64,000 nt of DNA, from the NCBI RefSeq assembly GCF_003430825.1, contig NZ_CP024047.1, positions 3,286,001 to 3,350,000 of the forward strand. The letters run 5' to 3'. This stretch comes from Natrarchaeobaculum sulfurireducens (GTDB lineage: Archaea > Halobacteriota > Halobacteria > Halobacteriales > Natrialbaceae). A model generated the notes under the pieces. It made no database searches. It saw only the letters and a list, made by a program, of their open reading frames with translations, and was not told where the DNA came from. Below, one piece after another: positions 25,775-59,427 of the stretch (position 1 is the stretch's first letter; the number at the start of each line of letters is the position of its first letter). A program made the translations under genes and the position numbers.

Positions 25775-26464
25775 TTATTGGGATTCAGCGACGATCTCTC
25801 GAATTATCTCTCGTGCCTCGTCCTCTGATAGTCCTTCAAGTTGTACGTTCGTCAGTGCGTGGTTGAATCGTCGCGTGGTCTCGTCAATGACACGCGACTT
25901 TTCATCTTCAAGTTCGTCACACATGACTTGAACGGCAGGCTGATAGCGCGCAAACCAGCGGTCAAACACCTTGTTGACCATAGTCTGATTGGCAAAGACC
26001 GCGTCTGTTGTCGAATAATCGTCACCACGAGATGTGAGCTCTGCGATCCACCAGAGACGGTGGATGGCGTTTGAGTACAAGTCGGAGCCTGCACCGAGGA
26101 ACTTCTCTCTCATCGCCTCCTCAGAACGATACTCCCAACGGTGCCGGACGAGATCGGGATACCGGACGACTGCTAGCCAGTGCCAGAGGCCCGGATCCCC
26201 GGCAGTTCGCCTTGTAATGTCAAGGCCGCGATGAATGTCTTCAGCGAGTGCACCATCTATAGCAGTGTTGTACTCCTGATACTCATCTAACACCTGCTGT
26301 ACCGCCGAATCAATCCTGTCAAGGTCGGCCTTCGGATGTCCTGGCATAGGCTCTACGTACTTATTTAGCTGTTCGTCGGTGAGCGTCGCCTCGCCTTGCA
26401 TAAACGATTCACCAACGAGGCGGCGTCCGTCTTCGGTCAGTCGGTGTAATTCTGTTTCGGTCAC
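25775..26464 (-). CDS. DUF6339-like protein A1 (cassette 1, third gene)
   Basis: 229 aa, soluble, mostly alpha-helical by composition. The core seen in all three copies in this window is: a helix ending LDITRRTAGDPGLWHWLAVV, then a FP/YP-D motif with an Arg-Trp (LVRHRWEY), then LYSNAIHRLWWIAELT, and a final helix pair around RWFARYQPAVQ. The D(P/A)xLW(H/A)(W/Y)L plus RLWW.AxLT pattern is what I know as DUF6339, of unknown function. It starts with GTG at 26464, 1 nt after the stop of B1, so it is translated last in the cassette. It has no nuclease or ATPase motif that I can see. Confidence 0.8.
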   Translation of the reverse strand: MTETELHRLTEDGRRLVGESFMQGEATLTDEQLNKYVEPMPGHPKADLDRIDSAVQQVLDEYQEYNTAIDGALAEDIHRGLDITRRTAGDPGLWHWLAVVRYPDLVRHRWEYRSEEAMREKFLGAGSDLYSNAIHRLWWIAELTSRGDDYSTTDAVFANQTMVNKVFDRWFARYQPAVQVMCDELEDEKSRVIDETTRRFNHALTNVQLEGLSEDEAREIIREIVAESQ

Positions 26465-26465
26465 G

Positions 26466-27503
26466 TTAGATCTGGAGGCCCTCCTCCATGAGATGGATCA
26501 GTTGCTCTCGGGGATTTATGTACTCCTGAAGTTCGCTATCGATCCGCTGTATCACGTGGGGTAGGGTTTGCGAGTCAGAAAGATTGTCCCTGAGACGGTG
26601 AGTCGCTTCTGACACATCACTAGTATCGTAGAGGTTGCGGGCAAACGTCTGAAGCACCATTTCTTGCCACTCGTATTCAACATCGCCCTCTACGTCTACG
26701 GCACTACCAGCCCGAACAAGCAGTTGTATCCACACACCGTAGCTCACTTGATCAAGTATCACGTCACGCATCCGAGCCTCGGCCCCGACAGATCCCCTAC
26801 TCTGTAGTACCTCGGCAATACGGGGATGATCTGAGTTGATCCACAGTTTAGGACGACTCTCGTTTCGGAAGTCAAGGTAGTAGAGCTTGTTTCCGTCTGG
26901 GAGGTGAGCGTTTTGTGAGAACCGCACCCGCTCACCATCAATAGCGGCTCGCTCTTCGCCGTCGGTGCGGTCAACGACGACGTAGTACAGTGTCCCACTG
27001 GCGACGCGGAAGTTCTTTTGATCGGCGTAATCGCTCAGTCCTTCTCCTGAATGAGATTCTGTGCGAACGAGATACGGACGGAGTTCAAAAGTTCCTCGAA
27101 CAGTGCTCTTCGGAACTTCTATCGTGACGTCGTATTCACCGGGCGTCGTAGGTGCTTCGGAAATGACGACCCGATCACGATAAATCGTCTCGTGACAGCG
27201 AATGGTTACGTAGAGCTTGGCCGGAGGCTGTGCCCGTTCGTCCTGTGGAAAGACTGCTTGAACTGTCTCCTCGGACAGGCCCAGTTTCCCGTGGAGAGTG
27301 ATCGTGTTCCAATCCGGATCATCACTACTGTCGGACGACGACACTGCCGACGCGAGGTCAATCTCTGTTTGTGCGGGGTTCAGTTCAAGTGCTGTTTGAT
27401 TTCCGTCGTCAACGGTGTACGAATCCAGTTCGAAGTCTACTCCCTTATCCCGGTAGCTGAACGGGAGTACCGTAGTACGGTGTCGCTGCGAGTGCCTGGT
27501 CAC
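26466..27503 (-). CDS. Cassette protein B1, unrecognised family
   Basis: 345 aa, unrecognised. It begins with a basic segment and LPFSYRDKGVDFELDSY, shared in form with B2 (LPYRYREDAIDLQIGEY) and B3 (LPHEYQEDALEFSVESF). A beta-rich middle follows (strand-like TITLHGKLGLSEETV; YDVTIEVPKSTVRGTFEL). The C-terminal half is helical: PKLWINSDHPRIAEVLQ, RDVILDQVSYGVWIQLLV and YEWQEMVLQTFARNLY are conserved among the copies. This suggests an N-terminal beta domain and a C-terminal helical interaction domain. Its GTG start overlaps the stop of C1 (GTGA at 27503-27500). Confidence 0.75.
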   Translation of the reverse strand: MTRHSQRHRTTVLPFSYRDKGVDFELDSYTVDDGNQTALELNPAQTEIDLASAVSSSDSSDDPDWNTITLHGKLGLSEETVQAVFPQDERAQPPAKLYVTIRCHETIYRDRVVISEAPTTPGEYDVTIEVPKSTVRGTFELRPYLVRTESHSGEGLSDYADQKNFRVASGTLYYVVVDRTDGEERAAIDGERVRFSQNAHLPDGNKLYYLDFRNESRPKLWINSDHPRIAEVLQSRGSVGAEARMRDVILDQVSYGVWIQLLVRAGSAVDVEGDVEYEWQEMVLQTFARNLYDTSDVSEATHRLRDNLSDSQTLPHVIQRIDSELQEYINPREQLIHLMEEGLQI

Positions 27504-29404
27504 GCTTGATCCTCCTCTGTTGTCTGTAATTCTGCGAGTATCTCTAGTTGTGTCGCGCCGACATCACCGTGCACTAAGTCAGCGGCTTCATCAGAATGAG
27601 AACGGCCATAGAACGATACTTCATTGACGGTTTCGTCGGCGACGAGGTGAGCACATCCATCGTCGTACGACACGGTCACGCCGGATTGTTCGATTTCAAC
27701 GGAATCGATGGGAATGTCGTCATAGCGGGATCCGTCCTCGCCAACACCGGTGAGTGAGATGTCGGCACTCCATCCATCGAACTCCTCTAAGAGGACTTCA
27801 ATTCGACCAGAGATCGTCCATGCGTCGCCATTGAAGCGAGACGAGCTGTCGATCTCAAAGGCAGGGTCGGCAGGCGACGTCGTGGATCGAGGATTCCCGC
27901 TCCCGTGAATCGGGAACCGGTTTAGAACATTGTCAGAGAGGGAGTCGCTGTTGCTGCCCTTCGATATCAAGTGGCGGAGGCCATCACGCACCGTTCCAAA
28001 CATGTCGTCGAGTGCCGTCCGGAAGCCACGTTGGTACTGCTCACGAAGGTTCTCGGTAGACTCCCACTCGTCGTGCTCGGGTGGCTCGGCGAACCGCAGG
28101 AACCGGTCTACTTCTCTGTCACTCTCGGACGGGATCCCTTCCGGCCGTGCTTCGCCAGCGGCCAACACGCCGAAGAAGTTTCGGTCACCATAGGCCACAC
28201 GGCTCTGGTCGTAATACTTGACCACCATCCCTGCTCCCCGGAACAGTGCGACGTTATTCAGGTACGCATCGTCGTCTGCGGGGGATGCAAGACGAGCCGA
28301 CAACCGAACTGAGCCGTCGGGAGTCTCGGCTCCGTCGGCACGGGGCGGGAGCTTAACCGGGATATCAAGTCCGGCGACGTCCCCGGGGTCTACCAGCGTC
28401 TGAGCGTCCGTAGTTCTCTCGTCGTAAGCCTCAACGAACGGTCGGATGGCCGGGACGCTCTCTACGTCGGCCGTCAGTATCTCGTCGGACGTTTCGACCG
28501 TGATTTCGAGGTCACCCCGATAGATCGCTGGCCAGAAGTACTTGACAGAGGCGTCAACAAACTCCTGTGCGAGGTCTTCGATATCCGGTCGCTCATCCCG
28601 CGTCGGGTCCTGGAATTCGACGACCATAGCGCTTGTTCCACTGACAGCGGGCCGTTCCACGTGCAGTTGTTCTGCGAGCTGCGACGCACGCTCTCCCCAG
28701 AATGATTCCGGTCGGGGGCCATCGTCCGTCTCCACAGGCTGGCAGAGCCACCCAGCACCTTGGTACGTCGTATCGTCGTTCGCGAGTTGGTGTGTCGGGA
28801 ATTTAGAGCGGGCAATGAGTCGCGGGGAATCATCCTCACGCACACCGTGTGTAAGGTGCGAGTTGAAGACGACCGTTGAAGCACCCGAAAAGGTCCAGAG
28901 TACGGACTTGCCGAGACCGTACGAGCCACCGGCGGTGTCATCCTGCTTGCTGCTGTAGAGTTCGTCGCGGACCAGCGCAGCGTAGTTTGAGTCTTCGTCC
29001 CAGTTTCCGGTTAAGCCGGTCGTATTTCTGTCTTCAACGACAAGGAGTCGGATTTCAGCATCGGGATCGTTAACTCGTTCAACGACCCGTTCGTAGCGAC
29101 GACCATTATTTGTGTCTGCGACCGCTCGCATCCGTTCACCGAGTCCATCATCCCAGCCAAGTCCGTTAAGGAACTCTTCTTTCTCGTCACCCCTGAGTGT
29201 GACGAAACGGAACGCCACCTCAACTGGATCGCCATTCGGGAGGCCCTGGTCATTCGCGTTTTGGAGGACCTCACGGACGAAAGCCTCGGAGTCGTGGTCA
29301 ACGGCGTGTTTGGTTGGATCGTCGCCGTAACGTGGCGCTCCTGGTCCACCACTGAAGAAGAACCACTCGGCCGCTTCGTTGATTTGTATCTGCTCCTGAT
29401 CCAT
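27500..29404 (-). CDS. GHKL-fold ATPase C1 (cassette 1, first gene)
   Basis: 634 aa. The N-terminal half has the Bergerat (GHKL) ATP-binding motifs: N-box FVREVLQNANDQG (residues about 42-54), a G1-like LVVEDRNTTGLTG (about 121-133, DxxTxGL in place of DxGxG) and the lid GGSYGLGKSVLW (159-170). The layout between motifs is like MutL/MORC/Hsp90-type ATPases rather than histidine kinases; no kinase H-box exists. The C-terminal third (after about residue 500) is beta-rich and ends without a known domain. It is first in the leftward cassette C1-B1-A1 and divergent from the cytosine methyltransferase gene, with 195 bp between. ATP-driven clamp formation on DNA is the inferred mode. Confidence 0.85.
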   Translation of the reverse strand: MDQEQIQINEAAEWFFFSGGPGAPRYGDDPTKHAVDHDSEAFVREVLQNANDQGLPNGDPVEVAFRFVTLRGDEKEEFLNGLGWDDGLGERMRAVADTNNGRRYERVVERVNDPDAEIRLLVVEDRNTTGLTGNWDEDSNYAALVRDELYSSKQDDTAGGSYGLGKSVLWTFSGASTVVFNSHLTHGVREDDSPRLIARSKFPTHQLANDDTTYQGAGWLCQPVETDDGPRPESFWGERASQLAEQLHVERPAVSGTSAMVVEFQDPTRDERPDIEDLAQEFVDASVKYFWPAIYRGDLEITVETSDEILTADVESVPAIRPFVEAYDERTTDAQTLVDPGDVAGLDIPVKLPPRADGAETPDGSVRLSARLASPADDDAYLNNVALFRGAGMVVKYYDQSRVAYGDRNFFGVLAAGEARPEGIPSESDREVDRFLRFAEPPEHDEWESTENLREQYQRGFRTALDDMFGTVRDGLRHLISKGSNSDSLSDNVLNRFPIHGSGNPRSTTSPADPAFEIDSSSRFNGDAWTISGRIEVLLEEFDGWSADISLTGVGEDGSRYDDIPIDSVEIEQSGVTVSYDDGCAHLVADETVNEVSFYGRSHSDEAADLVHGDVGATQLEILAELQTTEEDQA

Positions 29405-29599: not shown

Positions 29600-30715
29600 A
29601 TGAAAGTAGCCGCAGTGGATCTGTTCTGCGGGGCTGGCGGACTCAGTTACGGCCTCCAACAAGCCGGCGTCTCGGTCGTTGCAGGAATTGATCAGGACCC
29701 AGACTGTAAGTACCCGTACGAACAGAACATAGACGGCGAATACGTACGAGCAGACGTTCACGCGTTAGCACAAGATCCCGAACCAATCGCACAGATGTAT
29801 CCGTGGGATGCAGATCTCAAAGTCCTCGCAGCATGTGCACCTTGTCAACCGTACTCCACAATGGGGCACTCAAAGGGAAAGGGTCACGAGGACCATCAAA
29901 AATGGGGTTTGCTAAACGAAGTGTCACGGATCGTAGAGTACGTTGAACCGGACGTAGTCGTCACCGAAAACGTACTCCAAGTAAATCAAGAGGATGGGGT
30001 ATACGACGCGTTCATCAAAAGTCTCGAGTCCCAAGATTATCAAGTAAACCGTGACGATAATAAGAATGTCTACTGTCCTGAATACGGGATCCCACAGAAG
30101 CGGAAGCGGTGGGTTGTCATGGCGTCCAAGCGGGGGTCCCTTTCTCTTCCCAACCCCCCGATTCGGAACGAAGACGACTACCCGACGGTTCAAGATACGA
30201 TTGATCATCTACCACCGATTGAAGCAGGAGAAGTGAGTGAAGAGAACGACGTACATAGAGCACGTTCTCTCTCGGAGAAGAACCTAGAGCGTATCGATAA
30301 CATGGAACCTGGTGGGGATTGGACTCTCTGGGAAAAAGAGGGCCTCAACCATCTTCTCGCAGACTGTCACCGGAAGGCCACTGGGCGCTCGTACAAAGCT
30401 CCCTACAGCCGGATGCGGCCCAACGAACCCTCGCCGACTATCACGACGCAGTTCTACAATTACGGGAGTGGTCGCTTCGGACACTACGACACAGACCAGA
30501 ATCGGGCACTCTCGATCCTCGAGGGAGCACTACTTCAGACGTTCCCAGAAGACTATGACTTCTACGACGATTGGGAGGACGTCGGTGTGTCAAATCTGGG
30601 CCGCATGATCGGCAACGCGGTCCCCCCGAAGCTCGGTGAGTACATGGGCAAGGCAATCCTTTCACACGTAGGCGCGGCAGCGCCGTCTGTCGAGTCTACA
30701 GTCGCCGACGACTGA
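29600..30715 (+). CDS. DNA (cytosine-5-)-methyltransferase
   Basis: 371 aa with all main C5-MTase motifs: I DLFCGAGGLSYGL (7-19), IV APCQPYS (catalytic Cys82), VI ENV (123-125), VIII PQKRKRWVV, IX RPNEPSPTITT and X GNAVPP. The target-recognition region (about 205-275) is short. It should transfer methyl from SAM to C5 of cytosine in an unknown site. A TATA-like TTATGTAA centred 25 bp upstream of the ATG suggests a leaderless transcript. A mismatch-glycosylase-like gene follows 10 bp downstream. No adjacent classical restriction endonuclease is evident; the GHKL cassettes flank both sides. Confidence 0.95.
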   Translation: MKVAAVDLFCGAGGLSYGLQQAGVSVVAGIDQDPDCKYPYEQNIDGEYVRADVHALAQDPEPIAQMYPWDADLKVLAACAPCQPYSTMGHSKGKGHEDHQKWGLLNEVSRIVEYVEPDVVVTENVLQVNQEDGVYDAFIKSLESQDYQVNRDDNKNVYCPEYGIPQKRKRWVVMASKRGSLSLPNPPIRNEDDYPTVQDTIDHLPPIEAGEVSEENDVHRARSLSEKNLERIDNMEPGGDWTLWEKEGLNHLLADCHRKATGRSYKAPYSRMRPNEPSPTITTQFYNYGSGRFGHYDTDQNRALSILEGALLQTFPEDYDFYDDWEDVGVSNLGRMIGNAVPPKLGEYMGKAILSHVGAAAPSVESTVADD

Positions 30716-30725
30716 GAGAAAACGG

Positions 30726-31361
30726 ATGTCATCTGAGACCCAGCACCGATTTCGGACAAACCTGCTTGAATGGGGAAAGGAGAACCGCCGTGAATATCCG
30801 TGGCGGCAACTGGATCGAACACTATACGAGGTATTCATAGCGGAGTTCTTCCTGACTCAGACACCGGCTGACAACGTTGCAGCGGTCTATCCAGGGTTCT
30901 TGGAACGGTTCCCAACGCTGGAGGAGATTACGGAGGCCGGTGAGCAGGAGCTCGTTGAAGCTATTGAGCCCCTCGGATTCCAAAACATGCGTGCAGAGGC
31001 GCTGAAGCAGATTGCCTCAACGCACGATCACCTCCCCATTGAGCCGGAAGCGCTGATGGAACTTCCGCGAGTGGGTCGATACGTGGCGAACGCCACGTTG
31101 TGCTTCGCTCGTGGTGACCGGTTACCGGTACTTGACAGGAATGTTGAGAGGGTGTACAGTCGAGTATTTCGAGATGCATGGCCCGAGACAGAAGCGGATC
31201 AGTTGACTTTCGCGCAGAGACTGGTACCTGACGAAGCTCGTGTGTACAATCTCGCTTTGCTCGATTTCGGTGCGTTGGTTTGCCGGACAGAACCGCTATG
31301 TGAGCAGTGTTTCGCCAACAAGTACTGTGTTTACTTCCAAGGATCGGCAGGGCGTACGTAG
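30726..31361 (+). CDS. HhH-GPD DNA glycosylase, thymine-mismatch (Mig)-like
   Basis: 211 aa. Helix-hairpin-helix LPRVGRYVANA (113-123) is followed by the catalytic Asp in LPVLDRNVERV (Asp137) and a C-terminal cysteine cluster C186-x5-C192-x2-C195-x5-C201 for a [4Fe-4S] cluster, one residue shorter than in EndoIII/MutY. The position of EndoIII's catalytic Lys is Tyr119, as in the thymine-DNA mismatch glycosylase Mig of Methanothermobacter, while MutY has Ser there. The early EYPWR and FFLTQTPADNV resemble MutY and Mig. The gene directly follows the C5-methyltransferase (10 bp gap), where it would repair T:G mismatches made by deamination of 5-methylcytosine. Confidence 0.88.
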   Translation: MSSETQHRFRTNLLEWGKENRREYPWRQLDRTLYEVFIAEFFLTQTPADNVAAVYPGFLERFPTLEEITEAGEQELVEAIEPLGFQNMRAEALKQIASTHDHLPIEPEALMELPRVGRYVANATLCFARGDRLPVLDRNVERVYSRVFRDAWPETEADQLTFAQRLVPDEARVYNLALLDFGALVCRTEPLCEQCFANKYCVYFQGSAGRT

Positions 31362-31631: not shown

Positions 31632-33623
31632 ATGACAGATCCCATCTGGAAGTTCCCAGAGCAGAAATCGGGAATAACAGAGTATCACAAAAACCCAACA
31701 GAAAGTGCTCTGGATAGTACTCTTGAAACGTTTGTTCGTGAAGTCCTGCAAAACGCGAACGATCAAGGCATCTCCGAGGAAGAACCTGTCAAGGTTACGT
31801 TTGACTTTACCACACTTACAGGAAGCGAACTTGGGGAGTTTTTAAAGACGCTCATCTGGGAGGAACACGATGGGAGCCCAGAAGATCTCCGCTGGCATAT
31901 AGAACGCGCAATCGAAAACGACCAGGCCCGTGACCCCGGGCTCAAACGCTTTCTTAATCATTTTGACGGCGACAGCCTCACCATCCTGACCATTCACGAC
32001 GAACATACGACAGGCCTTCGAGGCAACGAGACAGACACAAAGGAGCCGTATGCTTCTCTTGTCAAAGACTTCGGCAGTACGAACAAACCGGGATCTAGTT
32101 CAGGCGGGAGCAAGGGCCTCGGTAAGACAGTCCTCTGGGCTTTTTCAGGCCTTTCGACAGTTCTGTTCAATTCGCATCCAGACTCCTTCCCCCCCGATGG
32201 TGGTGACGAGCCGCCACGGCTCGTCGGACGTACAATCGTCCCAGCACACACGGACAAGGATGAAACGACACACTACACGAACCACGGCTGGTATGGTCGA
32301 AACAACCCCGACCGAATTGATGACATTGGTCGTCCCAGCTCACTCTGGGGCGACCTCGACGACGCAGATAGACTTGCAGACACGCTTTCAGTAAGCCGAC
32401 CGACCGACAACTACGGCACAAGCATCGGCGTTGTGGGTTTCCGCATTCCAGGCCGAGAGTCTGAGCCCGACATGGAAGAGTTAGCTGCCTCTTTCCGCCA
32501 CGCGTCGGTGAAATACTTCTGGCCGGCGATGGTGCGAGACGAATTGGAAGTCCACGTCGAAACTCCAGACGGTACCCAAACGGAGGCGACACTTGACGAT
32601 GCCCCCGGTGTCAAACCATACGTCAAGTGCTACAGCGAATACTTCGATATCACTGATACGGAACTGAGTGGGGCCGGCAGCTTTGCGAAACGAGAAGTCC
32701 CGATCGAAATCCCACGTGAAGATCCAGAAACGGTAGATGAGGACCCACATGATGGCTACCAAACTGCCGTTGACCTTGTCGTACGTCACCTCACCCCGGC
32801 GGATCGGACTGCTTTCGACGCGGACGATGATGATGAACTAGGAATTAACCATGTGGCGAGACTCCGTGGGGCGCAGATGGTAGTTGACTATGTTGACATG
32901 TCTCGGGCTGCTAACCGCGGCAAAGACTTCGTTGCAGTCATGGTTGCCGGCGAAGCACAGACGCGACCTGATGAGGACGTATCGGAAGCAGAAACGGCTC
33001 TTGAAAAGTTCCTCAAGAGGTCCGAACCCACACAACACGACGACTGGATTGGCTCTGACAACGACTATCTCAACGAACACTACATTGGAACCATCACAGC
33101 CGAAATTAACGCGTTAAAGGGTGAACGGCTGGAAGCTGTGATCAACGACATCGTTCAGGAGGATATCGATTCTGGTGACGAAGTGCCTGGAATGGATGAC
33201 ATCGCCCCGATCATGGATGGTCGAGACACCGATAACGGCGAGGACTCTGCCCTCAGCTGGGAAACTAGACCCGACGTCTGGATTGACGACGAGAGGTGGC
33301 AATTCTTCGCTAAAGGTGGCCCCAGCGACCCAGACCATGGCGGCTGGACACTCACCGTTAAACTCGTACGACTCGACAGTCAAGGACACGAAGGTGAATC
33401 GGTCCCGATTGACGAATTCGAAGTCGTCGAAGGAGAAGCCGACGACTCAGTTGATGCCGACGGAGTCGCCCATCTCGAAGCCGATGGGACGGCCGACCGT
33501 GTCGCATTCCAAGGAGGATCTATCCAACTAGACGGGTTCTCTCGGGACCCAGGGGAACTCTTTGATGTCGGCGAAGCCACCCAAACAAAAATTAAAATCA
33601 GTGCCGAAATCATGGAGGAGTAA
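31632..33623 (+). CDS. GHKL-fold ATPase C2 (cassette 2, first gene)
   Basis: 663 aa homologue of C1 and C3. Motifs: N-box TFVREVLQNANDQG (about 33-46), G1-like IHDEHTTGLRG (about 120-130), lid SGGSKGLGKTVLWAFSG (about 156-172). The conserved middle HASVKYFWPAMVRDELEVHVET and the LRGAQMVVDYVDM segment are shared with the other copies. It is more divergent from C1 and C3 than these are from each other, and has a longer, acidic C-terminal beta-rich region. The start is supported by a TATA-like TATTCATA about 30 bp upstream. B2 starts 5 bp after its stop. Confidence 0.85.
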   Translation: MTDPIWKFPEQKSGITEYHKNPTESALDSTLETFVREVLQNANDQGISEEEPVKVTFDFTTLTGSELGEFLKTLIWEEHDGSPEDLRWHIERAIENDQARDPGLKRFLNHFDGDSLTILTIHDEHTTGLRGNETDTKEPYASLVKDFGSTNKPGSSSGGSKGLGKTVLWAFSGLSTVLFNSHPDSFPPDGGDEPPRLVGRTIVPAHTDKDETTHYTNHGWYGRNNPDRIDDIGRPSSLWGDLDDADRLADTLSVSRPTDNYGTSIGVVGFRIPGRESEPDMEELAASFRHASVKYFWPAMVRDELEVHVETPDGTQTEATLDDAPGVKPYVKCYSEYFDITDTELSGAGSFAKREVPIEIPREDPETVDEDPHDGYQTAVDLVVRHLTPADRTAFDADDDDELGINHVARLRGAQMVVDYVDMSRAANRGKDFVAVMVAGEAQTRPDEDVSEAETALEKFLKRSEPTQHDDWIGSDNDYLNEHYIGTITAEINALKGERLEAVINDIVQEDIDSGDEVPGMDDIAPIMDGRDTDNGEDSALSWETRPDVWIDDERWQFFAKGGPSDPDHGGWTLTVKLVRLDSQGHEGESVPIDEFEVVEGEADDSVDADGVAHLEADGTADRVAFQGGSIQLDGFSRDPGELFDVGEATQTKIKISAEIMEE

Positions 33624-33628
33624 CTCGC

Positions 33629-34612
33629 ATGACGTCCGACATCCGACGTGCGACTGCCAACGCCGACGACCTCCCTTATCGCTACCGAGAAGACGCGATA
33701 GATCTCCAGATTGGCGAGTACAGTGTTGACGAAACTGAACCTTCCGAACCGGAGACAGACGATACCACCCTGCCACTCTTTCGGTATCAGCCGTGGGATC
33801 GGGCAGAGCTCTCGCTGTCGCTGTCAATCTCTGACCGAGACTTGGACCACGTTTGTGAGGGCGACACCCCTTACGATGCCAAGCTGATCGTAGTCGTCGA
33901 ATCGAAATCGACACACCTACGGTACGAAGTAGTGGTCGAGGACGAGCCACTAGCTGCTGGGACGTATGAGAAAACTATCGATCTTGAATCCCATCTCTTT
34001 CGTGACACAGTGACGCTGACCCCGCGGATCGTCACCTCTGACAGCGTATCTAGCGGATTACCGTTCGCCCCGAAAGGGGGTATGCGTATCGCAGGTGGTG
34101 ACGTTTGGAAAATTCAAGTAGATGAACCCGAACAGAGTGGTACTGGTTACCCGTTCCGGTACAGAGACTTCTCCGATGGCGACTATCCAGAGGGTGCGGT
34201 CCATCTGCTCAAGAGCAACCCACGAGAACCTGCAGTTCTTGTCAACACTCTTAACCAGCCGATAGTGGACATACTGGAAACCAAGACGTTCTACAGCTTT
34301 GATTCCTATCTAAAGAACGTCATCAAGGCGGAATTAGGCACGTCAACCTGGATACAGCTCGTCGTTCATACGGCAACGACGATCGCCGAATCCGACGAGC
34401 CACAGTACGAATGGCAGGAGGGGTTGATCGAGGAGATCGGCCCGTACCTCTACGAGGGCTCATCGTACGATGAGGTAGTTGAAAACCTCGGTGAGGCTGT
34501 GTCCGAACCCGACGAACTTCGGAGCTTCATCCGTGAACTCAACATCGCCGTACAACTATATCTTGACCAAGCATCACAGCTCAACGACTTCATTAGCGAC
34601 TTCAGACCATGA
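33629..34612 (+). CDS. Cassette protein B2, unrecognised family
   Basis: 327-aa homologue of B1 and B3, with the same order of landmarks: LPYRYREDAIDLQIGEY near residue 20, a beta-rich middle (YEVVVEDEPLAAGTYEKTI), then EPAVLVNTLNQPIVDIL, LKNVIKAELGTSTWIQLVV and YEWQEGLIEEIGPYLY. The Leu-Trp-Ile-Asn-x2-His-Pro motif of B1 and B3 has changed to LVNTLNQP, so that motif is not strictly required. The stop overlaps the start of A2 (ATGA at 34609-34612). No enzymatic motif is seen. Confidence 0.75.
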   Translation: MTSDIRRATANADDLPYRYREDAIDLQIGEYSVDETEPSEPETDDTTLPLFRYQPWDRAELSLSLSISDRDLDHVCEGDTPYDAKLIVVVESKSTHLRYEVVVEDEPLAAGTYEKTIDLESHLFRDTVTLTPRIVTSDSVSSGLPFAPKGGMRIAGGDVWKIQVDEPEQSGTGYPFRYRDFSDGDYPEGAVHLLKSNPREPAVLVNTLNQPIVDILETKTFYSFDSYLKNVIKAELGTSTWIQLVVHTATTIAESDEPQYEWQEGLIEEIGPYLYEGSSYDEVVENLGEAVSEPDELRSFIRELNIAVQLYLDQASQLNDFISDFRP

Positions 34613-35319
34613 CTGATATTCCACGACTCACGGATTCTGGCCGGGATATGGTAGAGGAGCACGACGAATTCACCTCTAGGGAGGAGGTACGCTCTCTGAG
34701 AGATGACTTAGAAGCCCATGTCGAATACGACCCGGTCCCTGAGGCTAATATTGATGTAGATGCGCTGAACGAGGCAATCGAACGCGCCACAACGGTCTTC
34801 AATCCAGATATCGACACCCAGCGTTCGGCGATGGATTCAGTACTTTCCCCACTTGTCCATCAGTATTACGAGATCCCACCACGTGTCGCGGGCCAAATCG
34901 GCGTCTGGCAATACCTTGCGCTTGTTGAATTCCCAGACTATGTTGTGACTCGTTGGCTTGGACATGGTGATCTCAAAGAGAAACTTCTAGGTGAACAAAA
35001 CGACCTCTATTCGAATCAAATGGCACGTCTGTGGTGGGGTGCCCACTTAACCTACGACCGAGAAGCAGATCACTACTACGGCACCCATAAAATGTTCAAT
35101 AAGCAACGGATTGCCAATTACGTTCTGGACAGCGAATTCAACCGTTGCCGGCCCGCTGTGCTTGCCTTTGTCGGCAAGCTGCACTCGGAATCTGGGACAA
35201 CTATTGGCACTGTTGGACGGAGGTTTAACCAATCGCTCTCAACGTATCAAATGGACTCTCGAAGTCGCCAGGATTTCGAAGACCAATTAGATAGAATTCT
35301 TGATTTCGTCACCACATGA
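34609..35319 (+). CDS. DUF6339-like protein A2 (cassette 2, third gene)
   Basis: 236-aa homologue of A1 and A3: IGVWQYLALVEFPDYVVTRW, then DLYSNQMARLWWGAHLTYD and a C-terminal helical region with NRCRPAVLAFVGKL. The N-terminus IPRLTDSGRDMV is like A1 (LHRLTEDGRRLV). It overlaps B2 by 4 nt, so the cassette is translationally coupled. 261 bp of A/T-richer DNA follow, containing a promoter and a small ORF for the next unit. Confidence 0.8.
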   Translation: MTDIPRLTDSGRDMVEEHDEFTSREEVRSLRDDLEAHVEYDPVPEANIDVDALNEAIERATTVFNPDIDTQRSAMDSVLSPLVHQYYEIPPRVAGQIGVWQYLALVEFPDYVVTRWLGHGDLKEKLLGEQNDLYSNQMARLWWGAHLTYDREADHYYGTHKMFNKQRIANYVLDSEFNRCRPAVLAFVGKLHSESGTTIGTVGRRFNQSLSTYQMDSRSRQDFEDQLDRILDFVTT

Positions 35320-35584: not shown

Positions 35585-36357
35585 CTTCAAGCGAGGACAA
35601 CTCAAGCGAATATCCACTCATCCTCCACTGTTTCGCAGACTACGGGACGGAATCAGAGATACTCAGCGACTTTGGAGACGTAATTCGTGTCGGAATTGAT
35701 CCCAAAGACACGAACGAAAGTGCGCCGGTTAAAGCAGACGCCCATATCGAAAAAAAGGAGTGGGACCTACCGATTAAGGACGGTGTCACATTTGATCTCG
35801 GACTATTCCACCCGGTTTGCTCCAGGTGGGCCGCGACAACGAGTATCTCAGGGAATCCCGACGAGCACGAAAACATGATCCCGAGTGCGCGGATGCTCGC
35901 GGAGAAGTACTGCGACCACCACATTATTGAGAACGTCCCACGCGCCCCACTCAACGACCCTGTCGTGTTGAACGGACGGATGTTTGGCATGCCCATTGAG
36001 TATGAGCGTGCCTTCGAAACCTCTTTCAAAGTACCACAGCCCCCCCGTGAGAAGCAGCTCTTGACTACAGATGGATCATCTGATAAGGCCGAGACCTCGT
36101 CGTTCTTCTTCTCCGAACGTTCCAGAGAGTGGTGGGCGGCAGTTAAGAACTACCCCCCAGGGCCGTATCCGAAGGGCCACTTGGCGAAGAACGCGATTCC
36201 CGCGCCGTTCATTTATTACCTAGTTCGGATGTGGTTGATGGTGTATGAGGATGAGAAAGGTATCTCGGATGGGCGAGTGGACTACTCCGACTACAATGAG
36301 CGGATGGACACTAAGCGAAAAAGTGAGGATAATCGCCAGTTAGACGAGTTCCGATGA
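35581..36357 (+). CDS. Phage-type C5-methyltransferase-like protein, motif-degenerate
   Basis: 258 aa. The region IIENVPRAPLNDPVVLNGRM (115-134), followed by FGMPIEYERAFETSF, is typical of the short phage DNA methylases (ENV motif plus RxxLFET). Motif IV is HPVCSRWA instead of PPCQxxS, with the candidate nucleophile Cys80 kept. Motif I is CFADYGTESEIL, replacing FxGxGG, which makes SAM binding doubtful. It may be a divergent methylase with a special target, or a binding-only derivative. The stop overlaps the start of the GIY-YIG gene (ATGA at 36354-36357), indicating a paired product. Confidence 0.7.
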   Translation: MTSSEDNSSEYPLILHCFADYGTESEILSDFGDVIRVGIDPKDTNESAPVKADAHIEKKEWDLPIKDGVTFDLGLFHPVCSRWAATTSISGNPDEHENMIPSARMLAEKYCDHHIIENVPRAPLNDPVVLNGRMFGMPIEYERAFETSFKVPQPPREKQLLTTDGSSDKAETSSFFFSERSREWWAAVKNYPPGPYPKGHLAKNAIPAPFIYYLVRMWLMVYEDEKGISDGRVDYSDYNERMDTKRKSEDNRQLDEFR

Positions 36358-37880
36358 GAGATAAGGAGTGTTACGTGTATCTGGATCGGGGGTCTAAGAC
36401 GTCGTACGTTGGCGATCCGTTCGTGGGGGTGCCGGTGTCTCGTAACATCGTTGAATCCGTCGCTACCCAGCGTTCCATTAAGGCTGATTCACTCGCAAGA
36501 GCGCTGCGAGAAGTACGAAATACGTCGGTGATTGACACTGAGACCCTGTTCACGGGATTCGACCCCCTTCCGATAGGACGGAGTGACGACGGGCTATTGT
36601 ACGTGGTGGCCGAGGCGGACGGGTGTTGGGACGCGGCTGCTAGTAGAATCGGCCTCACCGAGGAGGGTCGTGACGCCGCAGCGACCGCTCACGACCGGCA
36701 GGTCGAAAAAGTGGTTGGAGATAGAGAAGAGGGAAGCGGTAGTGGGTTCGTCGTTTCGTGTTCCGAGTTTCCTGCAGACGCTATTGACAACATCGTAGCG
36801 GTAGCAGACAGGACCAGACTGACGAATCGGCAAGCGACGATATGGGTCCTCTCACAGTACGTCCCAGGTAGTGACGCAATCGCCCATATACTCTCGGTTC
36901 CAGAGTCAATCGTGCAGTCTGAACTCGCTACCGTTGACCGGACTACGCGACGGAGCGCGGCAGAGACACGAACTCTCGACGTCCCCGGACCGCTCACTCG
37001 CCTTGATCCGGAACCTCAATCCAGAACGTGGATGGGACTCAATTGGTCAAGGTGGTTCAACCTTCGAGACCGCAAAACGCTCCGAAAAGAATTGCCACGC
37101 CGTCCAGGCCTCTACCGAGTTCGACACTCAGAACTCCCGGGTTTGATGTACGTTGGGGAGTCGGGATCAGAAGGAGGCGTTCGACAGCGCGTAGGGCTCG
37201 GTCTATCCGCCGGGGTGAACGAATCGGATCAACAGACTGGAGACAAACATGGTGCTGCCCGTGCCCTTCGGCAAATCACTGAGACAACGGGGGGCAAGAT
37301 GGAGGTTTCTGTCACGGTGCCCCCGATATCGTCGAATGGAAGACACCGGCGGGCAATTGAAGCAACCCTGGTGGCCATCTCGCGGCGAGAGACCGGTTGG
37401 ACTCCGATGGTCCAACTGAACCGAGAGCCTACTGAGCACGCAACCGGCTCCCATGGCGAATTACATCATGAATTAATAAGCATCGCAGAACGGTCCTCGT
37501 ATACCGTACCGTCGTGGCAGCCCTGGCGTGACGTGACCGACCCAAGATGGTTGGGACTCGACTGGACCGAGAGCCGTCCACTCTCTGAGCGAGACAGGAT
37601 CGACAGTAGTGGAGTACATGCGTTTCGATTGTGGCGAGAGGATCAAACGGGGGAACAGTGGAGTCAAACGATCCAAGAGATGGGCACGACCGGATCGATA
37701 TCAAGTCGGCTGTTCAAATTGCAGAACGAGTATGGAGGCGAGGTGCGTTTCTCTGTTGTCACCCTTGACGGGCTAAGCTCTGACACACAACATCGGTCGC
37801 GTGAACTCAGAGAAACCCGCTATGACCTCGTCGGCGCACACTACTTGGCCACTGGCATTCCCCCGAAGGCACAGTACTGA
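36354..37880 (+). CDS. GIY-YIG nuclease-domain protein
   Basis: 508 aa. A GIY-YIG-like domain starts near residue 251: PGLYRVRHSELPGLMYVGES (GLY...YVG), then Arg in VRQRV and a Glu in RRAIEATLVAIS, matching the order of the catalytic residues in this nuclease family. A second related half may start near residue 430 (SGVHAFRLW...SGELSSRLFKLQ-like), lacking clear YIG. The first 240 residues form an unrecognised domain that could bind DNA. Coupled to a phage-type methylase-like gene, it is a candidate modification-dependent or -blocked endonuclease. Followed by 69 bp and a small ORF ahead of cassette 3. Confidence 0.7.
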   Translation: MRDKECYVYLDRGSKTSYVGDPFVGVPVSRNIVESVATQRSIKADSLARALREVRNTSVIDTETLFTGFDPLPIGRSDDGLLYVVAEADGCWDAAASRIGLTEEGRDAAATAHDRQVEKVVGDREEGSGSGFVVSCSEFPADAIDNIVAVADRTRLTNRQATIWVLSQYVPGSDAIAHILSVPESIVQSELATVDRTTRRSAAETRTLDVPGPLTRLDPEPQSRTWMGLNWSRWFNLRDRKTLRKELPRRPGLYRVRHSELPGLMYVGESGSEGGVRQRVGLGLSAGVNESDQQTGDKHGAARALRQITETTGGKMEVSVTVPPISSNGRHRRAIEATLVAISRRETGWTPMVQLNREPTEHATGSHGELHHELISIAERSSYTVPSWQPWRDVTDPRWLGLDWTESRPLSERDRIDSSGVHAFRLWREDQTGEQWSQTIQEMGTTGSISSRLFKLQNEYGGEVRFSVVTLDGLSSDTQHRSRELRETRYDLVGAHYLATGIPPKAQY

Positions 37881-37949: not shown

Positions 37950-38018
37950 ATGAACCGTAACATACACTTTTCCAACATATCTGCGGTCACGCCCGCCAGT
38001 GCTAGTGGGGTGTCGTGA
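37950..38018 (+). CDS. 22-aa small ORF coupled to ATPase C3
   Basis: ATG at 37950 with a TATA-like TTTATG (37919-37924) about 28 bp upstream, so the transcript would be leaderless. It ends in TGATG, where its stop overlaps the ATG of the ATPase gene (38018). The peptide starts MNRNIHFSNISAV and has no recognised motif. As at 35489, it may act as a translated leader. Confidence 0.4.
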   Translation: MNRNIHFSNISAVTPASASGVS

Positions 38019-39904
38019 TGAGCGGTCAGTGGGGATTCACCACGTCTCGACCGACTGATGCCCGATACGGTGACGATGTCGCAAAATACGCGATGTCGCA
38101 CGGTGAACCGGGGCTGAAGACGTTTGTTCGGGAGGTGTTACAAAACTCGAACGACGCACGGTTAGCCAACGATCAACCAGCACGGGTCACGTTCAGGCTG
38201 AAATCCTTACAAGGCGACGAGGCAATAGAGTACCTCAAAGCACTTGACATCGAGACGTGGTCCGAACACGCTAATTTGGCGACAGATACGGAGAGCGGTA
38301 AGCACATCGCTGAGGCGATCAAGCGCATAAAAGACGACGAGAAAATCCGTATTCTGACTATTGAGGACGAAAATACAGAGGGTCTACTCGGTGAGGAGAA
38401 CGCCGACGAATCAAACTTCACCGCTCTAGTCCGCGACGTCCTGTTCAGCAGTAAATCGGGGGATACTGCCGGCGGGAGTTACGGTCTGGGGAAGGCTGTC
38501 CTCTGGCTGTACTCGGGCCTGTCACTTGTAATGTTCAACTCAACGCTGAGCGATTCCGACCCGAAAGATCAGTCCCCTCGACTGATCGGTCGGACGCGCT
38601 TGCCGACGCACAAGTCGGAGGATGGCGATACGGTGTACCAAGGACACGGTTGGTACGGTGGTCTGAACGACGAGGAGGGCGCAAGGCCGGAGTCCATCTG
38701 GGGAGAAGAGGCTGAATCGATAGCGGACGACCTCCAGTTGAGTCGTCCGGACGGACCGGGAACGAGCATCCAAGTTGTGGACTTCCGCGTACCTACAGCA
38801 GAAGAGCGCCTGAACGACGAAGAGTTAGCGGACCAGATCACGGAGATGGCAATCGAATGGTTCTGGCCCGCGATTTATCGTGGCAATCTGGAGGTAGCAG
38901 TCGAAGTAGAGGGTGAGACGAAGCAAGCAAGTATCGACGAGTACCCGCAATATGAACCGTTCACCAACTGTCTGGACAACCGTTCTAACTCGGTTGACCA
39001 ACTGGCCGAACCCGGAGATGTCACGCAAGCGGCCATATCGATAGACGTCCCCGAGAAGAGCGACGGAAGTGGCGGTGCAGACGGCCAACTAGATTTGGTA
39101 GTTCGGCGTACGGATACGGGCGAGTATCAGCATCGAAACGAGGTAGCGTTCGTTCGAGGTGCGGGGATGGTTGTTGAGTATTACGACCGAGACCGAGTCG
39201 TCGTCGGGAATCAAGACTTCCACGCTGTCCTCCTCGGTGGGCGTGCGCGACCTTGGGGAACCGAGGGATGCCCACAAGATACAGACACTATCGTGGAGGA
39301 ATTTTTGACCGCTGCGGAGCCACCTCAACATGATGAATGGGTGCGAACGGAGACACTGGCGAACACCTATTCTAGAGGATTCCGGACTGCAGTAGAGGGT
39401 ATCAAGTCTGACGTGACCGAGGCGTTACGTGGACTCGTCGCACCCGACGTTAACAGAGGCGCGACTGGACCTCAGCGTCTGGGAAACCGGTTCAAAATCG
39501 GAAATGAATCACGAGGGGGTCATTCTGACCGTGAATCACCCAGTAGTCAGCGTGTCACCGGAAGCACAAACATCTCTTTTGACGAGGTGTACACACACTG
39601 GTCATTCAACGGTGAGGTGGAGCCTTTGAGCGACCGTAACGAGATCCGGGCAGTCACCGTCTCATTGGTTCGGATGGCAGAGGAGAGAGCGACATCGGAT
39701 CGTCTTCCCGTACAGAACATCTCGTCAGATACGGCTGGGGTCTCAATATCGCTCCCGGAACAGAAGGGAGTCCAAGTAGGACGGCTGGAGCCCGTTCCTG
39801 GTACATCAAAGATATCCTTTGAAGGTGTCTCAAAAGAGGACCACAGACAAGTAGAGACCAGACTGAAAGTGTCAGTTGAAGTGGCAGAACGGAGGGGTGA
39901 CTAA
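38018..39904 (+). CDS. GHKL-fold ATPase C3 (cassette 3, first gene)
   Basis: 628 aa. N-box FVREVLQNSNDARLAN (about 34-49), G1-like IEDENTEGLLGEE (about 116-128), lid GGSYGLGKAVLWLYSG (about 152-167). It is closer to C1 than to C2: both share RYGDD near the N-terminus and SN(Y/F)(A/T)ALVRD..(F/Y)SSK..DTAGGSYGLGK. The C-terminus includes HWSFNGEVEPL, a beta-rich end domain as in C1. I take the ATG at 38018; a GTG one codon earlier (38015) is the alternative. It overlaps B3 by one base (TAATG). Confidence 0.85.
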   Translation: MSGQWGFTTSRPTDARYGDDVAKYAMSHGEPGLKTFVREVLQNSNDARLANDQPARVTFRLKSLQGDEAIEYLKALDIETWSEHANLATDTESGKHIAEAIKRIKDDEKIRILTIEDENTEGLLGEENADESNFTALVRDVLFSSKSGDTAGGSYGLGKAVLWLYSGLSLVMFNSTLSDSDPKDQSPRLIGRTRLPTHKSEDGDTVYQGHGWYGGLNDEEGARPESIWGEEAESIADDLQLSRPDGPGTSIQVVDFRVPTAEERLNDEELADQITEMAIEWFWPAIYRGNLEVAVEVEGETKQASIDEYPQYEPFTNCLDNRSNSVDQLAEPGDVTQAAISIDVPEKSDGSGGADGQLDLVVRRTDTGEYQHRNEVAFVRGAGMVVEYYDRDRVVVGNQDFHAVLLGGRARPWGTEGCPQDTDTIVEEFLTAAEPPQHDEWVRTETLANTYSRGFRTAVEGIKSDVTEALRGLVAPDVNRGATGPQRLGNRFKIGNESRGGHSDRESPSSQRVTGSTNISFDEVYTHWSFNGEVEPLSDRNEIRAVTVSLVRMAEERATSDRLPVQNISSDTAGVSISLPEQKGVQVGRLEPVPGTSKISFEGVSKEDHRQVETRLKVSVEVAERRGD

Positions 39905-40971
39905 TGGCGACTGTAAATGAGGGAGTTGAAGCAGCAGAACCAGAAGAAGAAAAAGACAACGTCCAGACAGGCAGCTTAGTCAGCCAGTCTCTCCCGCATG
40001 AGTACCAAGAAGATGCACTCGAATTTAGTGTTGAATCATTCCATCTGGATGGGGGTCCTCTCGGTGATAGAGGAGATCTTGACGAGGACGACCAGTTTCT
40101 ATCGCTAGTAGACGAGGCTGACTGGAAGACTCTGGAGTTAGAAGGTACAGTTACCGTTGATCAGGATATCGTTGAGGATGTCTTCCCGTTTGACGAGTGG
40201 GAAGAGACGCCGGGTCGTCTCGCACTGGTGAAGGAGAACCCCCTCGCGATAAACCGAGACCGGCAGATACTGGCCGATTCTCCCTTTGATGGAGGGACCT
40301 ACGAATTTACTCTGTGTATCAACCGTGACGACCATCGTGGACAAGTGAAAATCAAGCCGTTCCTCACCAGAACGAAGAAAGGCGGCTCTGGTGGGTCGAA
40401 ACACGCGTCCAAGGTTGGTGCACGAGTCGCTGACGGGCTCTCGTGGGTCATCCGACTCGACGAGAGGGAGGATGGGGGAAGTCTTCTCATGCCGATCATA
40501 GAGGATTTCAGCGACTACGACAGCTTCCCTGACGAGAACCACATCCACCATCTCAGCCTGGAGGCACCTCGGAACCCACAGCTCTACCTGAACAGGGAAC
40601 ACCCACAGGTGGTCGAGGTTCTGAACAACACGGGGTCCACAGGTGGCCCACCACGGCTGCGTGACGTACTCTACGACTACATTGAACACTCCGTCTGGAC
40701 GCAGCTACTGATACAGACGGCACACGACACAAGCCCCGACACCGGTGAGCCGGAGTACGGCTGGCAGGAAGACGTATTGGACATCTTTTTGGACGATTTG
40801 TACCCTAATCTCGGCGACGACGAGGCAGCGATCCAACTTGCTGAGGACGTTCGGAGTCACGCTGATCTCCCGGATCTTGTACAACGAATCGAACGTGCGG
40901 TACATCAGCAGTACAACATCCCATCCGACACGACGAATCTGATTGAGGAGGCGATCCAAAGTGACGACTGA
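39904..40971 (+). CDS. Cassette protein B3, unrecognised family
   Basis: 355-aa homologue of B1 and B2. An extra acidic N-terminal 25 residues precede LPHEYQEDALEFSVESF. The C-terminal landmarks are QLYLNREHPQVVEVLN, LRDVLYDYIEHSVWTQLLIQ and YGWQEDVLDIFLDDLY, matching B1 position for position. In all copies the WQE(D/E/G/M)xx motif is the most constant point. The start lies at the stop of C3; the stop lies inside the start region of A3. Confidence 0.75.
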   Translation: MATVNEGVEAAEPEEEKDNVQTGSLVSQSLPHEYQEDALEFSVESFHLDGGPLGDRGDLDEDDQFLSLVDEADWKTLELEGTVTVDQDIVEDVFPFDEWEETPGRLALVKENPLAINRDRQILADSPFDGGTYEFTLCINRDDHRGQVKIKPFLTRTKKGGSGGSKHASKVGARVADGLSWVIRLDEREDGGSLLMPIIEDFSDYDSFPDENHIHHLSLEAPRNPQLYLNREHPQVVEVLNNTGSTGGPPRLRDVLYDYIEHSVWTQLLIQTAHDTSPDTGEPEYGWQEDVLDIFLDDLYPNLGDDEAAIQLAEDVRSHADLPDLVQRIERAVHQQYNIPSDTTNLIEEAIQSDD

Positions 40972-41752
40972 GCTTTACCACCTCCAGAGTGCGGCCCATC
41001 CGATGATTGACAATCGATTCCTTGCGGGAGATCGTGAGCTCACGGAAGAGGATCTTCGTCCGTACTTACAACCGCTAGGTCGTTCCATAGACCTAAGTCC
41101 GATAGACGAGCGGATTGAGGAGATCCGTGCTGATAGCGAGATAGGTGCCCAGTCCTCACTAATTGACGCTGAGTTAGCGCCGACACTACACCGTGCTCTC
41201 GACCTGACGCGCAATGAGGCGGCAGATGCCGGGTTGTGGCATTACCTCTGTGTCGTTCGATTCCCGGAGTTCGTTCATTACCGGTGGGATCACGTCTATG
41301 ATCCGGAGAGTCCAGGTAATATGGAAGAGAAGTTCTTAAAAGCCGGAACGGACGCCTACTCCAACGCATTGCACCGAATCTGGTGGGGTGCAGAGCTCAC
41401 CTATGAGAAAGCTGAATCGGGAGATATCAAGGATCGGGACTACAGTAGAACAAAACGAGTCCTCGGTTTCCAGGAACTCGCCAATGATATTCTGGACCAC
41501 GACTTTGCACGGTACATCCCCGTTACGCACGCCTGCGGTGATCTCCTCTGCCACGACACGCTGAACGAGATTAAGGAGGAGGGTACGTACAACAATCCAC
41601 CGTCAAACAGTAACATTGTGAGCCGAACGACGACACTACTCCGGGAAGAACTGACGGTTCGACGTGTGGAGATGATGGAGGAAGACGACATTGTGGAGAC
41701 AATAGAGGACCTGCGTGACGACGTGATGCGCCGAGAGGCTGGCTGGTCGTAG
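40961..41752 (+). CDS. DUF6339-like protein A3 (cassette 3, third gene)
   Basis: 263 aa, the longest of the three A proteins. Core: LHRALDLTRNEAADAGLWHY, FPEFVHYRWDHVYDP, then DAYSNALHRIWWGAELTYE. The C-terminal region has an added helical extension (TTLLREELTVRRVEMMEEDD). The start is set at GTG 40961 (MTTELYHLQSAAHP), matching the N-termini of A1 and A2; this overlaps the stop of B3 by 11 nt. A MITE begins 20 bp after its stop. Confidence 0.8.
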   Translation: MTTELYHLQSAAHPMIDNRFLAGDRELTEEDLRPYLQPLGRSIDLSPIDERIEEIRADSEIGAQSSLIDAELAPTLHRALDLTRNEAADAGLWHYLCVVRFPEFVHYRWDHVYDPESPGNMEEKFLKAGTDAYSNALHRIWWGAELTYEKAESGDIKDRDYSRTKRVLGFQELANDILDHDFARYIPVTHACGDLLCHDTLNEIKEEGTYNNPPSNSNIVSRTTTLLREELTVRRVEMMEEDDIVETIEDLRDDVMRREAGWS

Positions 41753-43414: not shown

Positions 43415-43500
43415 ACACAATCGCCTGTTGATCAAGTGACCTCTTCGTGTGGTTCTCACCTGCATGGCTAACGATCAAACCATCAGCGAGGAGGACCACG

Positions 43501-44601
43501 ATGAGCGAAGTAGGTAGTAGCGAAGAGGAGTCCCAGATGCCCGAGGCCAACCTGGTCGACGAGATTTCTGGAGAGCGATTTCGAGACTGGTATCGGAAAA
43601 GGGAGTTCAGAAAGAACATCGAAGACGGAAACCCGTATTTTAACGGTCCCTCGTCGGTCCCCTCCCCCAGAAAACACAGTCCAAGCCAACTACTGCAGTG
43701 TCACCGGAAAATCGCGTACCGACAGCACAACGCACCAGCAGAAAAATCGGACCCAGTGGGAATCTTCTGGTTCGGGTCCCGATTTGAAGAAGAGCTTGTG
43801 CAGGCCTTTCTCAAAGAAGCTGTGATCGATGATCACGAATACGTTACAAACTCACTCTGGGTCGATTTCACGGTCCAGACAGACGCTGGTGAGATCCAGA
43901 TCAAAGGTGAAACGGACCCCGTAATCGTAGACTCAGACGGCAATCCATTGCTTCTGACAGAGATCAAGACCAAGCAAGCCGTAGACAACGTTCAATCGCC
44001 GAACAGACATCACCGGGCACAGGCGCATGCCTACATGAAGGGGCTGAGCGAGAAACACGACCGGAAAGTGACGGACGCAGTCGTCCTGTACGGAAGTCGA
44101 AAAACCCTTGATGTCAAATCGTTCCACATCGAATTCGATCCGTGGTTCTGGCGCAACACGGTCCTAGCTTGGGCGGAGACACATACGTCGTATCGGCTTG
44201 ACGAGGAGTTGCCACCAGCAAATCCCGAGTACGGCTGGGAGTGTAACTTTTGTTCTTTTAGAGACCGGTGCGGTCGAGGGAGTGCAAGCTACGAGAGCAT
44301 AGGCCCTGTAGGATTGCTCCCGCTCCATGAATACCCCCGAGAAGAGGCTATACGTCACCTGGAGAGTCATGGGAATGCAAAACTTACACCGACCCTATCA
44401 AATCGGTATCCAGAATTAGCGAGCAGATTCGAGGTCCACGATTGGCGATGTGAACGTTGCGATGCGACCTATCCACACGATTCAGTTGAATGGACCGGAG
44501 ATCTTTCGGAGCCACCTCTCTGTCCCTCCTGTTGCGATTGCGGTGTGCCAGCTACACTGCGTGGAGACTCCATCCTCTCACAGGGGAAAGAGGGTGAATG
44601 A
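43501..44601 (+). CDS. PD-(D/E)XK nuclease, Cas4/RecB-like, with Fe-S and zinc clusters
   Basis: 366 aa. N-terminal SPSQLLQCHRKIAYR has the Cas4-type first Cys; GETDPVIVDSDGNPLLLTEI then KT supplies the catalytic D...ExK; QAHAYMKGL is the QxxxY motif; CNFCSFRDRC completes a Cas4-like Fe-S cysteine set. After the nuclease comes an added zinc ribbon (CERCDAT...CPSCC). I use the ATG at 43501, which follows a GAGGAGGA purine-rich Shine-Dalgarno-like stretch. No cas1/cas2 or CRISPR array is near, so a role in mobile-element DNA processing is likelier than adaptation. The next gene starts 1 nt after its stop. Confidence 0.8.
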   Translation: MSEVGSSEEESQMPEANLVDEISGERFRDWYRKREFRKNIEDGNPYFNGPSSVPSPRKHSPSQLLQCHRKIAYRQHNAPAEKSDPVGIFWFGSRFEEELVQAFLKEAVIDDHEYVTNSLWVDFTVQTDAGEIQIKGETDPVIVDSDGNPLLLTEIKTKQAVDNVQSPNRHHRAQAHAYMKGLSEKHDRKVTDAVVLYGSRKTLDVKSFHIEFDPWFWRNTVLAWAETHTSYRLDEELPPANPEYGWECNFCSFRDRCGRGSASYESIGPVGLLPLHEYPREEAIRHLESHGNAKLTPTLSNRYPELASRFEVHDWRCERCDATYPHDSVEWTGDLSEPPLCPSCCDCGVPATLRGDSILSQGKEGE

Positions 44602-59423: not shown

Positions 59424-59427
59424 ATGA
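59404..59427 (+). other. 7-codon minicistron overlapping the sacsin-like gene start
   Basis: ATG at 59404, seven codons, TGA at 59425-59427, overlapping the gene's ATG at 59424 as ATGA. A TATA-like TTTAAG lies about 32 bp upstream. This repeats the arrangement seen at 35489 and 37950. It may guide ribosomes or be coincidental. Confidence 0.3.

Follow-up and report, generated by a model that had tools for sequence, protein, structure and literature searches.

A C5-cytosine methyltransferase gene paired with a predicted Mig-type glycosylase gene in a haloarchaeal GHKL/DUF6339 cassette

In this study, we analyzed a stretch of 64,000 nucleotides from Natrarchaeobaculum sulfurireducens (NZ_CP024047.1, positions 3,286,001 to 3,350,000; hereafter "the window"). 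It contains a C5-cytosine DNA methyltransferase gene and, 10 bp downstream (spacer 30716-30725) and in the same direction, a gene for a short DNA glycosylase of the Mig type. With a probability of about 0.82, we propose that the methylase marks self for a restriction-type cassette, and that the glycosylase repairs the T:G mismatches arising from its deaminated 5-methylcytosine. The pairing principle is already known from the Methanothermobacter plasmid pFV1; what goes beyond pFV1 is the size of the haloarchaeal family, its GHKL/DUF6339 setting, and the fusions described below. Features are collected in Table 1.

Table 1. Genes of the methylase-glycosylase pair and of the surrounding cassette (window coordinates).
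Feature	Position	Strand	Evidence
DUF6339 protein, module 1, PDC-M33C-like	25775..26464	-	Pfam DUF6339 1.4e-19
Middle protein, module 1, no family	26466..27503	-	Homologous to 33629-34612 and 39904-40971
GHKL ATPase, module 1, PDC-M33A-like	27500..29404	-	PADLOC PDC-M33A 6.4e-23
C5-cytosine DNA methyltransferase, 371 aa	29600..30715	+	Pfam DNA_methylase, PADLOC PDLC02651, motifs
Mig-type HhH-GPD DNA glycosylase, 211 aa	30726..31361	+	1kea match, residues, tree
GHKL ATPase, module 2	31632..33623	+	PDC-M33A 1.8e-21; 36% to module 1
Middle protein, module 2	33629..34612	+	25% to module 1 copy
DUF6339 protein, module 2	34609..35319	+	Pfam DUF6339 3.4e-17
Short C5-methylase-like protein, 258 aa	35581..36357	+	Invariant HPVC, IENVP
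GIY-YIG-like candidate nuclease	36354..37880	+	Conserved GLYRVRH...LMYVGESG...GGVRQRVG
GHKL ATPase, module 3	38015..39904	+	PDC-M33A 6.1e-36
Middle protein, module 3	39904..40971	+	31% to module 1 copy
DUF6339-like protein, module 3	40943..41752	+	PDC-M33C 5.1e-14

Residues of the methylase and the glycosylase

Both reading frames are intact. The methyltransferase carries motifs I (DLFCGAGG, aa 7), IV (PCQPYS, 81), VI (ENV, 123), VIII (QKRKRW, 166) and X (GNAVPP, 338) in the order found in C5-cytosine methyltransferases, as an earlier sequence-only reading of this DNA had claimed. The Pfam match covers residues 5-354 (E=1.6e-48), and the PADLOC profile PDLC02651, labelled DrmMII, matches over the full length (3.4e-254). 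Matches among solved structures span the catalytic half only, and our search for a characterized homologue with a known recognition site returned none.

The glycosylase matches Pfam HhH-GPD at 5.7e-15, and associates this fold with the catalytic Asp137 and a four-cysteine Fe-S cluster (Cys186-x5-Cys192-x2-Cys195-x5-Cys201), a combination expected of the Mig type; it also carries Glu40. At the position of EndoIII Lys120 it has Tyr119, as Mig does (Y126), and the lack of a Lys there is that of a monofunctional enzyme. The sequence-only reading had described these residues, the cysteine spacing and the 10 bp distance correctly. One correction concerns Tyr119, which sets the protein apart from EndoIII but not from MutY: the MutY of Bacillus (Bst) and the host's own MutY have a Tyr there as well, and we discarded it as a Mig-diagnostic residue.

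More informative are the two published positions that distinguish Mig from MutY, which are both Mig-like in the glycosylase (Ala48 and Leu176). Their counterparts are A50 and L187 in Mig, and V45 and Q182 in E. coli MutY; the A50V and L187Q changes were reported to shift Mig from T:G towards A:G, and E. coli MutY V45A/Q182L gained no T:G cleavage (PMC2714593). Because of this last result, which counts against a repair role, Ala48 and Leu176 are indicative, not sufficient alone. Further pocket residues are retained (Arg22, Glu40, Leu43, Asn139 and Asp180). At the Ala48 position, Ala (or Gly/Ser) is nearly universal in short methylase-linked proteins, and Val, Leu, Ile or Met is found in long MutY proteins; the Leu176 position varies more in the Mig group (Leu, Trp, Phe, Tyr).

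Alternatively, the glycosylase could be a MutY-type enzyme acting on A:G or A:8-oxoG, a housekeeping duplicate placed beside the methylase by chance. Tyr119 and Glu40 are indeed common to Bst and haloarchaeal MutY, and the best-scoring NCBIfam model is mutY, although its score (140) is below the cut-off (286.5). The nearest PDB sequence match is Mig itself (1kea) at 112.5 bits, while the best-scoring MutY reaches 104.1, a margin that by itself would not settle the matter. On the other side, the pocket is not of the V45/Q182 type, the protein is short and has no MutY C-terminal extension, and separate MutY and Nth genes are present in the host. A phage origin was also considered and rejected: phage records give only MutY-like matches, with at most 35% identity.

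Phylogeny and linkage to C5-methylases

In a careful tree, from which both specificity columns had been removed beforehand, 38 Mig-type proteins form one clade, with 97% bootstrap and 100% SH-aLRT support. Its members are the window glycosylase, pFV1 Mig, and the enzymes of Thermus and Caldicellulosiruptor plasmids, and it also takes in Asgard, Hadesarchaea and bacterial MAG sequences as well as a second haloarchaeal group. Clustering with housekeeping MutY had been set beforehand as the outcome that would contradict a Mig-type assignment; all 14 MutY proteins lie outside the clade in 100% of the bootstrap trees. A quick broader tree of 96 rows gave the same split, with lower support for the Mig side (82) and 99 for the MutY clade.

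Some short haloarchaeal HhH-GPD proteins (L066, L067, L068 and L072), with Ala at 48 and His at the Leu176 position, branch apart from Mig and MutY alike, and no methylase was found in their flanks. Three members of this small group (L066, L067 and L072) were omitted from the careful tree, and branch near the root in the 96-row tree.

Close relatives of the glycosylase (E<1e-43) were detected in about 29 of 391 Halobacteria genomes (about 7%), with scores well apart from those of MutY. We read 27 core haloarchaeal loci with about 9 kb of flanking DNA. A C5-methylase lies at 6.2 kb or less in 24 of them, this limit having been chosen after the distances had been seen; in the three others, which speak against a repair role, the flanking DNA that we read contains no methylase. 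Outside Halobacteria, a methylase is nearby in 18 of 28 Mig-type loci versus 0 of 37 MutY-type loci (p=2.6e-9). When a methylase is in range of a Mig-type gene (62 genes), the distance is 200 bp or less in 31 cases. The absence of such linkage among MutY genes, and their exclusion from the Mig clade at 97/100 even without the specificity columns, add to the residues discussed above and to the MutY already present in the host; MutY identity was thus rejected on tree, residues and context, and we hold it to be highly unlikely. The earlier proposal of a haloarchaeal equivalent of Mig is supported by the clade, by the Mig-like specificity residues and by the recurrent pairing with methylases.

Among the 31 genomes having the window methylase family (E<=1e-70), the glycosylase is present in 23. 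The partner is dispensable, since the remaining eight have no intact copy, and this too weighs against a repair role. One of these eight methylases is 91% identical, and at its locus a different GHKL-like gene occupies the place of the glycosylase. Frameshifted or truncated remnants persist in 2 of the 8. Codon comparisons with close relatives gave dN/dS values of 0.04-0.05 for the methylase and 0.13-0.20 for the glycosylase, and we therefore conclude that both are under purifying selection. That the window glycosylase is a passenger, or a decaying gene with no present role, would fit the broken copies of some relatives and a ratio above that of the methylase, but its frame is intact, every catalytic and cluster residue is retained, and the dN/dS of 0.13-0.20 itself argues against decay; we regard this explanation as very improbable.

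The effectors that accompany methylase-glycosylase pairs are diverse: endonucleases of the NgoPII type on pFV1, of the PLD type on pCALKR01 and of the MvaI/BcnI type in Alisedimentitalea, and GHKL trios in haloarchaea. As effectors differ between loci, the glycosylase follows the methylase, not one effector.

Two haloarchaeal C5-methylase-glycosylase fusions were found (L061, 8956-10797 (-), 613 aa; L205, 811-2301 (-)). That such fusions exist speaks for the repair scheme. In each of them, however, Glu40 and further conserved residues of the glycosylase part are lost, and in L205 Tyr119 and the Fe-S cluster spacing as well. Given these losses, which count against repair, the fused domains may serve another purpose, possibly DNA binding rather than catalysis. 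In six other loci (L044, L045, L046, L047, L049 and L050), the same glycosylase is surrounded by a pair of C5-methylases that belong to different subgroups and share about 50-73% identity with the methylase of the window; such cassettes may address two sites, or one asymmetric site.

The GHKL/DUF6339 cassette and its island

The methylase-glycosylase pair is located in a GC-poor, mobile chromosomal defence island, in which the GC content drops from about 0.62 to about 0.53 at 24-25 kb of the window, and which contains resolvases and integrases. In the same island, a Cas4-like PD-(D/E)XK nuclease gene (43447-44601 (+)) adjoins a resolvase, and a 1402-aa protein (59424-63632 (+)) matches TmtA, a protein of the Tiamat defence system (E=9e-258).

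Three paralogous trios, each made of a GHKL ATPase, a DUF6339 protein and, between the two, a protein of no assigned family, flank the pair (25775-29404 (-), 31632-35319 (+) and 38015-41752 (+)). The copies are divergent (25-39% identical). The GHKL gene of module 1 is oriented divergently from the methyltransferase gene, and its product has the conserved motifs E..QN..D, D.N..G and GGSYGLGK; the GHKL family profile gave no matches against the PDB. The model of the module 1 middle protein is a beta-sandwich with a helical C-terminus (pLDDT 84, pTM 0.53), for which structure matches are generic beta-sandwiches only. The DUF6339 model of module 1 (pLDDT 92) had no PDB match at E<=0.001.

Between the second and third trios are two genes that overlap by 4 bp. 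The first encodes the short methylase-like protein, in which the HPVC and IENVP motifs are invariant in an alignment of 11 homologues, and which is too small to hold a target-recognition domain. By tblastn, it matches halovirus proteins and phage proteins named "DNA cytosine methyltransferase", and it has relatives in mycobacteriophages and in the pleolipoviruses His2 and HRPV-9; its family profile gave no matches against the PDB. The second encodes the candidate nuclease, whose homologues are annotated as GIY-YIG nuclease family. The sequence-only reading, which saw a GHKL cassette instead of a classical restriction operon, was roughly right, but this candidate nuclease is part of the cassette as well. 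With A, B and C standing for the GHKL, middle and DUF6339 genes, several relatives share a core that runs C-B-A, methylase, glycosylase, short methylase, GIY-YIG, A-B-C, the second trio being missing or replaced.

Proposed function and relation to known systems

In the scheme we propose, the methyltransferase would methylate cytosine at a specific site, and the resulting 5-methylcytosine would serve the GHKL/DUF6339 (PDC-M33-like) cassette as its self-mark. Deamination of 5-methylcytosine to thymine would create T:G mismatches at the methylated sites. The glycosylase would then flip out and remove the mismatched thymine, and probably uracil too, with Asp137 and Glu40 as predicted catalytic residues, as known from Mig and MutY, and with a pyrimidine presumably accepted in the Ala48/Leu176 pocket. 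Host base-excision repair would finally restore C:G. Intact genes, membership in the Mig clade, the specificity residues, the recurrent linkage and the purifying selection are observations; T:G excision, its coupling to the sites of the methylase and a defence function for the cassette are inferred.

DNA glycosylases active in phage defence are known. The glycosylase could be an anti-phage effector that removes modified or mismatched bases from incoming DNA and thereby generates abasic sites, the methylase protecting or distinguishing self; this precedent speaks for it, as do the three GHKL trios and the Tiamat-like gene of the surrounding defence island. We nevertheless consider it unlikely: the specificity residues suit a repair enzyme, the glycosylase accompanies the methylase whichever of the very different effectors is present, and its loss from otherwise complete cassettes suits an accessory repair gene better. 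It also seems quite unlikely that, besides repair, base removal in foreign DNA (at T:G, U:G or modified bases) feeds the GHKL/DUF6339 modules, in a 5-methylcytosine-marked base-excision restriction. None of the rival explanations accounts for linkage and residues as well as repair of deaminated 5-methylcytosine.

If the repair scheme is correct, Mig-type repair is no longer limited to a few plasmids of thermophiles, but includes a populous, horizontally moving family of mesophilic haloarchaea. The scheme indicates a rule common to archaea and bacteria, by which C5-methylases are joined by a Mig-type glycosylase in cases where others have recruited Vsr, and it predicts which uncharacterized GHKL/DUF6339 cassettes use 5-methylcytosine as self-mark. 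For the group, which databases name MutY or hypothetical protein, a simple annotation rule can also be proposed: a short protein with Ala48/Leu176 and a linked methylase.

pFV1 is among the closest known systems. Its Mig, a thymine/uracil-DNA glycosylase, belongs to the same HhH-GPD/four-cysteine family and to the same clade, has the same Ala/Tyr/Asp/Leu pocket residues, and is likewise associated with a C5-methylase, but the window glycosylase is only 31% identical to it. The sequence-only reading placed the pFV1 methylase (M.MthTI) next to mig; they are in the same region, but are separated by a small ORF and by the gene of an NgoPII-family endonuclease, so that mig lies two genes away and on the other strand, whereas the window genes are co-directional and 10 bp apart. 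In place of the NgoPII-type endonuclease, the window has GHKL/DUF6339 trios, in a mesophilic haloarchaeal host. The Thermus (pAA1-1c, pPS18) and Caldicellulosiruptor (pCALKR01) plasmids also have a Mig-clade glycosylase adjoining a C5-methylase, but their neighbours differ from the window's, and Trp takes the place of Leu176 in the enzymes from Thermus.

Among defence systems, the PADLOC candidate PDC-M33 resembles the trios through its PDC-M33A (GHKL) and PDC-M33C (DUF6339) components. Matches are partial and distant, the middle protein matches no PADLOC model, and the window differs by its three divergent copies around the methylase-Mig pair; PDC-M33 is itself unvalidated, the literature searched having yielded neither a validation of it nor work on DUF6339. 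The DrmMII label of the methylase hinted at DISARM, which was rejected as none of the scanned proteins between 25.8 and 63.6 kb matched DrmA, DrmB or DrmC.

The MORC/paraMORC restriction-modification families combine GHKL with an S5 ATPase, often with an SFII helicase; the window has the GHKL motifs, and our scans found no helicase. In bacterial restriction-modification loci, Vsr is found alongside C5-methylases and MORC/paraMORC GHKL ATPases (PMC2292703, PMC8011034). Because Vsr occurs there together with C5-methylase and GHKL ATPase in the same way, the glycosylase would replace Vsr here, and most likely serves a restriction-modification-like system as its repair ("V") arm. Both are T:G repair genes, known or predicted, that adjoin a C5-methylase and GHKL proteins, but Vsr is an unrelated PD-(D/E)XK enzyme that nicks DNA, whereas its proposed counterpart in the window is a base-removing glycosylase.
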